64,000 bases of DNA, taken from the NCBI RefSeq assembly GCF_002208115.1, contig NZ_CP020946.1, positions 2,852,001 through 2,916,000 of the forward strand, read 5' to 3'. The position numbers and the translations under genes are program-made. The notes under the pieces are model-generated. The model saw only the letters and a program-made list of their open reading frames with translations, had not been told where the DNA came from and did no database searches. Shown here piece after piece: positions 5,323-24,784 of the stretch. The first letter of the stretch is position 1, and the number at the start of each line of letters is the position of its first letter. The stretch comes from Bdellovibrio bacteriovorus (GTDB taxonomy: Bacteria; Bdellovibrionota; Bdellovibrionia; Bdellovibrionales; Bdellovibrionaceae).

Positions 5323-5356
5323 AATAATAACAGCGATTAAATAATAACAGCGATTA
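5323..5356 (+). repeat. Two perfect tandem copies of a 17-bp unit in the fusA leader
   Basis: The unit AATAATAACAGCGATTA occurs twice without gap (5323-5339 and 5340-5356), inside the predicted 5' UTR and 27 bases before the fusA start. It could be a recent duplication or a repeated protein- or RNA-binding site. Confidence 0.9.
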
Positions 5357-5382
5357 AAACCATATAAACGAAGGGTAAAGAT

Positions 5383-14212: not shown

Positions 14213-14238
14213 GGACGTCTCCTGTTATTTTTTGTTTC

Positions 14239-14484
14239 CTAAAAAGATTGAATCGTAAATCTGCTCCAGTAAGCCACGTCATGCGCCACACAGCAGTCCA
14301 AATAGGCATTCACCGACCAGGCAAACCCGTCCGGACTCATGCTGCAGCCATCGCTGGTAAAGTCTTTCAGCGTATTTTTAGCAAACCCCTGCCCAGCCAC
14401 CATAGTGACCAATAAATAGACAGCAAGCGACACCCAGTGTCCCTTGCGAGGCTTAAATAAGGCTAATTTGGATTTGAATATCAT
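14239..14484 (-). pseudogene. Phospholipase A2-like exported protein, apparently truncated after the catalytic motif
   Basis: The 81-residue product has a hydrophobic leader (about 18-35). The segment SDGCSMSPDGFAWSV and the motif DCCVAHDVAYW (about 63-73) follow. CCxAHDxxYW is the Ca-binding/catalytic His-Asp signature of phospholipase A2-like folds. After YW the frame runs into SRFTIQSF and stops, only 26 bases before the APP1-type gene. Related proteins known to me continue for tens of residues after this motif, so the 3' part seems lost. It could still be a short functional variant. Confidence 0.55.
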
Positions 14485-14570
14485 CAGCCCCTAAAGGAGC
14501 AAGAGGCAGACCAAAGAAAAACATTTAAGAAAACCAGAAAATCCCCACCGCGACCCACCCAACCAAGGTT

Positions 14571-23988: not shown

Positions 23989-24784
23989 ATGAAAAATGCC
24001 TCTGAATTCTCCAGCCCTTTGCGCTTTCTGCTGACTGATATCGACGACACTTTGACTGACGAAGGACATTTGGGTCCGGAGGCTTATCAAGCATTGTGGA
24101 ACCTGCATGATGCCGGAATCCATGTGATTCCCGTCACAGGCCGCCCTGCCGGCTGGTGTGAAATGATCGCCCGCGTCTGGCCGGTCAGTGGGATCGTTGG
24201 CGAAAATGGCGGGTTTTATTTCCGCTATCATGGAAAGAAAATGCACCGTCATTTCTTCTTTGATGAAAATATCCAAAAAGAAAATCGCACAAAACTTCAG
24301 CAACTTGAAAAAGAAATTCTGCAAAAGGCTGCAAAAGGTCCCCGGCTGCGATCTGGCCAGCGACCAGTTCTGCCGCTTGATGGATCTGGCCATTGATTTC
24401 TGCGAGGACGTCCCACCCCTGCCAAAATCCGAAGTGCAAAAGATCGTGGACCTGTTCCATGCCGTGGGGGCGCAGGCCAAAGTCAGCTCGATCCACGTCA
24501 ATGGGTGGTTCGGAAGCTATGACAAACTGACGATGTCCCTTAGGTTCTTGGAAAGGGAATTTGGTGTCAGCGCGGAAGAGGCGAAAAAAGTCTGTGGCTT
24601 CAGCGGCGATTCCCCGAATGACGAGCCGATGTTTGCTTACTTCCCGCACAGCTTTGCCGTAGCCAACATCCAGAACTTTATCGATCAGATAAAAAACAAA
24701 CCCACCTATGTCTCCAAGGACCGAGGTGGGTTGGGTTTCACTGAAATAGCAAAAGCGATTTTAGAAAGTCACGCGAAGGCCTAG
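23989..24784 (+). pseudogene. HAD-IIB phosphatase gene interrupted by a 10-bp tandem duplication
   Basis: Two overlapping frames encode one protein. The first gives HAD motif I (LLTDIDDTLTDEG), motif II (VIPVTGRP) and GENGGFYFR, then runs out of frame at ILQKAAKGP and stops at 24396. The second continues with VPGCDLASDQFCRLMDLAIDF and motif IV (GFSGDSPNDEPMFAYFP) to 24784. Exactly at the join, CTGCAAAAGG is present twice in tandem (24319-24338). Removing one copy gives a continuous reading frame of 261 codons (ILQKVPGCDLASD). The intact protein would resemble sucrose- or mannosyl-3-phosphoglycerate-phosphatase-like HAD enzymes. It may be a pseudogene, a slippage-controlled switch, or an assembly error. 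Confidence 0.85.
24319..24338 (+). repeat. 10-bp tandem duplication that breaks the HAD gene
   Basis: Two adjacent perfect copies of CTGCAAAAGG. Ten is not a multiple of three, and loss of one copy restores the frame. Confidence 0.95.

Follow-up and report, generated by a model that had tools for sequence, protein, structure and literature searches.

A perfect 10-bp tandem duplication that splits a HAD-IIB phosphatase gene in the Bdellovibrio bacteriovorus SSB218315 record is probably an assembly artefact

The 64,000-nucleotide stretch of the Bdellovibrio bacteriovorus SSB218315 genome analysed here (positions 2,852,001 to 2,916,000 of NZ_CP020946.1; the window) contains a HAD phosphatase gene whose reading frame is broken exactly where a 10-bp unit, CTGCAAAAGG, stands twice in tandem, raising the question of whether the second copy is a recent mutation, a reversible switch or an error of the record. 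The 20-mer formed by the two copies, CTGCAAAAGGCTGCAAAAGG, occurs once in the window and in 0 of 100 shuffles, and Tandem Repeats Finder describes positions 24319-24338 as period 10, 2.0 copies and 100% match, in agreement with a sequence-only reading that had placed a tandem duplication at the frameshift. Its claim that dropping one copy yields an intact HAD-IIB gene was also borne out: the one-copy reading gives a clean frame of 261 codons that opens with the ATG at 23989 and closes with a stop codon whose last base is 24784, with no other stop between them. Motifs I, II and IV are intact as had been claimed, and a motif III lysine, which had not been listed, is present too (Table 1).

In the recorded sequence, the upstream frame runs into a stop codon at 24394-24396; the resulting N-terminal fragment matches Pfam PF08282 (Hydrolase_3) with an E value of 6.5e-07, and the C-terminal part is 98% identical to HD100. 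The frameshift is located where a cap helix ends (residues 93-113 in the AlphaFold2 model of the orthologues) and leaves motifs I and II on one fragment, motifs III and IV on the other; neither fragment by itself should therefore be active as a phosphatase.

Table 1. Features of the HAD locus and tandem duplications elsewhere in the SSB218315 record.
Feature	Position	Strand	Remarks
HAD motif I, TDIDDT (residues 16-21)	window 24034..24051	+	invariant in 26 relatives
HAD motif II, TGRP (residues 50-53)	window 24136..24147	+	invariant in 26 relatives
Probable motif III lysine, K176	window 24524..24526	+	invariant in 26 relatives; role suggested by the HAD superfamily
HAD motif IV, GDSPND (residues 203-208)	window 24605..24622	+	invariant in 26 relatives
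First CTGCAAAAGG copy	window 24319..24328	+	codons 111-113 of the HAD gene
Second CTGCAAAAGG copy	window 24329..24338	+	missing in 31 of 31 aligned relative loci
N-terminal fragment as recorded	window 23989..24396	+	135 aa (113 native and 22 foreign residues, then stop); motifs I and II
C-terminal part, other frame	window 24338..24784	+	V114 to stop; motifs III and IV; first own start M128
17-bp tandem duplication AATAATAACAGCGATTA, 2.1 copies	window 5323..5358		private; leader of the EF-G gene, about 20 bases 5' of the start
13-bp perfect duplication	genome 2743888 (locus L114)		private; breaks an FtsX/MacB-type permease
16-bp perfect duplication	genome 2823306 (locus L118)		private; breaks a PAS histidine kinase
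17-bp perfect duplication	genome 3331921 (locus L163)		private; breaks the DivIVA gene
17-bp perfect duplication	close to the end of a MarR-type regulator		private; alters the regulator's end
15-bp perfect duplication	intergenic		private
9-bp perfect duplication	within a 481-aa protein		private; in frame
14-bp perfect duplication	at a start codon		HD100 alignment has additional changes there
Pair of exact 77-bp duplications with 61 bp between them	genome 2719636 and 2719851 (locus L112, 2719636-2720004)		each frame-breaking; internally repetitive gene

Judged by sequence and modelled fold, the one-copy gene is a HAD-IIB hydrolase and a putative phosphatase. Its product matches Hydrolase_3, and the HD100 orthologue, on which family membership was judged, scores 73.3 bits against the NCBIfam model TIGR01484 for HAD-IIB hydrolases (curated cut-off 41.8), holds motifs I to IV and has the cap, while falling far under the cut-offs of the equivalog models for phosphoglycolate phosphatase and mannosyl-3-phosphoglycerate phosphatase. 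In the AlphaFold2 model, which was built from 26 orthologues (mean pLDDT 85.9), the cap follows motif II and precedes motif III, and helices and strands are seen from residue 76 to residue 170. A Foldseek comparison of this model with solved folds (E 2.4e-15) placed it nearest to PH1421 of Pyrococcus (1wr8), TA0175 (1kyt) and MpgP of Thermus (3zty). A search of a phage collection with the gene returned 0 matches, so that a mobile origin was not seen.

The relatives identify the second copy as an insertion, since the DNA alignment shows exactly these 10 bases missing at 31 of 31 relative loci. Across the order, sampled with one genome per species, 97 of the 99 other genomes carry the gene with its frame open over 253 aa or longer, and none of the 31 aligned relatives holds more than one copy of the unit or a repeat tract; a two-copy form with a shorter protein in relatives, which the sequence-only reading had raised, was thus not the pattern found. 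In the one-copy reading, comparison with HD100 gives pN 0.013 and pS 0.338 (pN/pS of about 0.04), with pN 0.019 and pS 0.302 before the duplication site and pN 0.009 and pS 0.366 after it. By this measure both halves are under strong purifying selection, with no decay, suggesting that the gene was functional until now or still is. The relaxed selection expected of an aged pseudogene was not seen, private amino-acid changes numbering two in SSB218315 and two in HD100.

These comparisons also bear on the proposed reversible slippage switch, in which gain or loss of the 10-bp unit would turn the phosphatase off and on. A 10-bp unit does shift the frame, loss of one unit restores it, and a repeat unit that is not a multiple of three inside a reading frame is shared with phase-variable contingency genes. 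The site differs from those genes in having only two copies of a long unit and tract-free relatives; the mark of a contingency locus, relatives that retain the repeat tract but differ in its number of copies, was not found, each of the 31 loci holding one copy. With two 10-bp copies slipping little, a product that is a conserved enzyme of cytoplasmic type and no surface structure, and like duplications in unrelated genes and leaders, a switch is very improbable, and a literature search for short tandem duplications acting as switches gave no fitting case. Alternatively, both copies could be real, with ribosomes shifting by +1 at GGT-CCC-C directly 3' of the repeat to produce the full protein; the required shift is indeed +1, and positions 24340-24343 read CCC-C. 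CCC-C is a known site type for +1 slippage of proline tRNA. Nevertheless, the relatives require no shift, the run is unconserved among them, and a stop codon or other stimulator is absent at the site, leaving this reading a likelihood close to nil.

Perfect two-copy 10-mers are expected by chance 1 to 3 times per 1.2 Mb according to order-2 Markov simulations, so that the 10-bp repeat, which is at the short end of the class, is weak proof by itself; it is the alignment to relatives that identifies it as an insertion. Duplications were counted in 1.2 Mb of the 3.77 Mb SSB218315 record (HAD site included) and in a control sample of 1.6 Mb from HD100, Tiberius and the genomes G016 and G007, where the genomes numbered G006 and G002 are taken by us to be HD100 and Tiberius, respectively. 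Perfect two-copy units of at least 12 bp numbered 15 in SSB218315 (12.5 per Mb) versus 2 in the controls (1.25 per Mb; p 1.5e-4) and 0 in simulated sequence of the same triplet make-up (order-2 Markov), whereas units of 8-9 bp showed no excess (28 versus 24 per Mb). Over 731 kb aligned between SSB218315 and HD100, a comparison that leaves out five SSB218315 duplications between 2.28 and 2.685 Mb, the perfect tandem insertions of 9-17 bp that are private to SSB218315 number 8; on the HD100 side there are 0 of at least 9 bp and 1 of 8 bp. Non-tandem insertions of at least 10 bp in the same alignment numbered 18 in SSB218315 versus 27 in HD100. Among 18 SSB218315 units of at least 10 bp, 2 are not private (11 bp at 3363813 and 15 bp at 2809710), HD100 having no gap there. 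These observations support well the conclusion that the SSB218315 duplications form an abnormal class, to which the HAD site is assigned because of its likeness to the other members.

The copies are also more perfect than a build-up along the SSB218315 branch would give. In the HAD gene, 34% of synonymous sites differ between SSB218315 and HD100, and the SSB218315 branch was estimated by hand from the pS of the gene at about 0.22 synonymous changes per site. Along that branch, about 13-17% of freely evolving 13-17 bp pairs would still be identical, again by a hand estimate and with conserved coding sites evolving more slowly. Only 1 imperfect duplication (87%) was seen against 8 perfect ones in the alignment to HD100, so the duplications are either all very young or unreal. 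Additionally, the matched bases extending past two full copies average 0.73, where chance gives 0.67, and microhomology is therefore absent; such chance-level ends speak against slippage between short repeats and suit contig overlap and blunt repair alike. Near genome positions 2812863 and 2782819, SSB218315 carries 56 and 74 extra bases and 35 and 51 HD100 bases align twice, which may represent imperfect duplications.

The individual duplications (Table 1) disregard reading frames. In the three broken proteins (DivIVA, the histidine kinase and the FtsX/MacB-type permease), the halves are 90-100% identical to HD100. DivIVA governs progeny shape in HD100, where divIVA deletion gives shorter, wider cells; the cell shape on record for SSB218315 is comma-shaped, without dimensions. 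When both 77-bp duplications are collapsed, 746 bp become collinear with HD100 in a single open frame. The topology of this pair would match adjacent de Bruijn edges of k = 77 written untrimmed. Reads of 75 nt, as published, do not permit k = 77; the actual reads may have been longer, or the value may stem from a different step. Perfect duplications of 39 and 40 bp were also noted at 2490099 (L181) and 2685209 (L111).

A genuine and very recent 10-bp duplication that inactivated the HAD gene, maybe fixed in culture, would account for an insertion that is exact and found only in SSB218315, within an undecayed gene that is not known to be essential. The other duplications would then have arisen by the same process, for example by Ku-dependent repair of staggered breaks: Ku is encoded, and end joining of filled-in breaks could duplicate sequence without microhomology. 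This explanation is nonetheless rather unlikely, as it demands a burst on one tip that struck several conserved genes while the HD100 branch shows 0; SSB218315 has MutS in an open frame; HD100 and the other controls are likewise Bdellovibrio; and the paired 77-bp doublings fit poorly. Slightly more doubtful is the full form of this history, in which a recent burst of perfect microhomology-free duplications, perhaps Ku-dependent, would have broken the HAD phosphatase, DivIVA, histidine kinase and permease genes near-simultaneously. A departed transposable element that left a 10-bp target duplication behind is scarcely credible: a perfect, microhomology-free direct duplication does resemble a target duplication, but the duplications of SSB218315 have many lengths (9-19, 39, 40 and 77 bp) where each element makes a fixed one, and a remnant between the copies is absent.

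The second 10-bp copy is most likely missing from the real chromosome, being the product of an unmerged contig overlap. The SSB218315 genome (CP020946; 3,769,537 bp with 3,579 CDS, 3,536 of them coding) was sequenced as NextSeq 75-nt pairs, assembled with SPAdes 3.10, scaffolded with MeDuSa and gap-filled with IMAGE (PMC5941755). Short Illumina reads were thus assembled, scaffolded and gap-filled to a single sequence, in which two contigs with a short overlap may have been joined with the overlap unrecognised, so that the stretch was written twice. The overlap at this locus would be 10 bp within the phosphatase gene; living SSB218315 cells probably have this gene whole and in one frame, as the relatives do. 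More broadly, the SSB218315 excess would arise from contig joins, with the HAD copy among them.

An artefact is preferred over the genuine event because the excess is confined to one record, the copies are perfect and free of microhomology, the frame is disregarded, selection on the gene is healthy, and the 77-bp pair is present. Contig-overlap artefacts share with the SSB218315 duplications perfect two-copy form, variable length, lack of age, frame-blindness, restriction to a single record and absence of microhomology; they differ in that at the HAD site the contig join is one that we infer. A perfect second copy that the relatives lack, and an excess of such duplications in this record over comparable genomes, were both found. 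Because a 75-nt read spans the 20-bp repeat, an artefact would require that coverage failed or a contig ended at precisely this site. The IMAGE paper describes new local contigs being merged by alignment and states no minimum overlap; all short SSB218315 duplications are below 20 bp, which would fit a 20-bp overlap threshold in gap filling, an unproved suggestion. A literature search for a described artefact of the unmerged-overlap kind gave no fitting case. Indels of at least 25 bp between SSB218315 and HD100 comprise 8 deletions and 5 insertions, with no clear excess of sequence loss at joins. On the minus strand at about 14225-14487 of the window, a 166-aa HD100 open reading frame is found minus about 238 bp internally, with a junction overlap of 2 bp; this loss may be either a true deletion or a join fault.

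Of the three outcomes that the sequence-only reading had left side by side, an assembly error is thus favoured by the tenfold excess and the sister genomes without it, the single-copy relatives weigh against the switch, and a recent duplication keeps the smaller likelihood given above. If the duplications are artefacts, the complete SSB218315 record holds a class of false frameshifts through which several intact genes, DivIVA included, would appear as broken, and any comparison of predatory genomes relying on this record would count false gene losses. If they are real, SSB218315 would be a rare bacterial case of a tandem-duplication burst.
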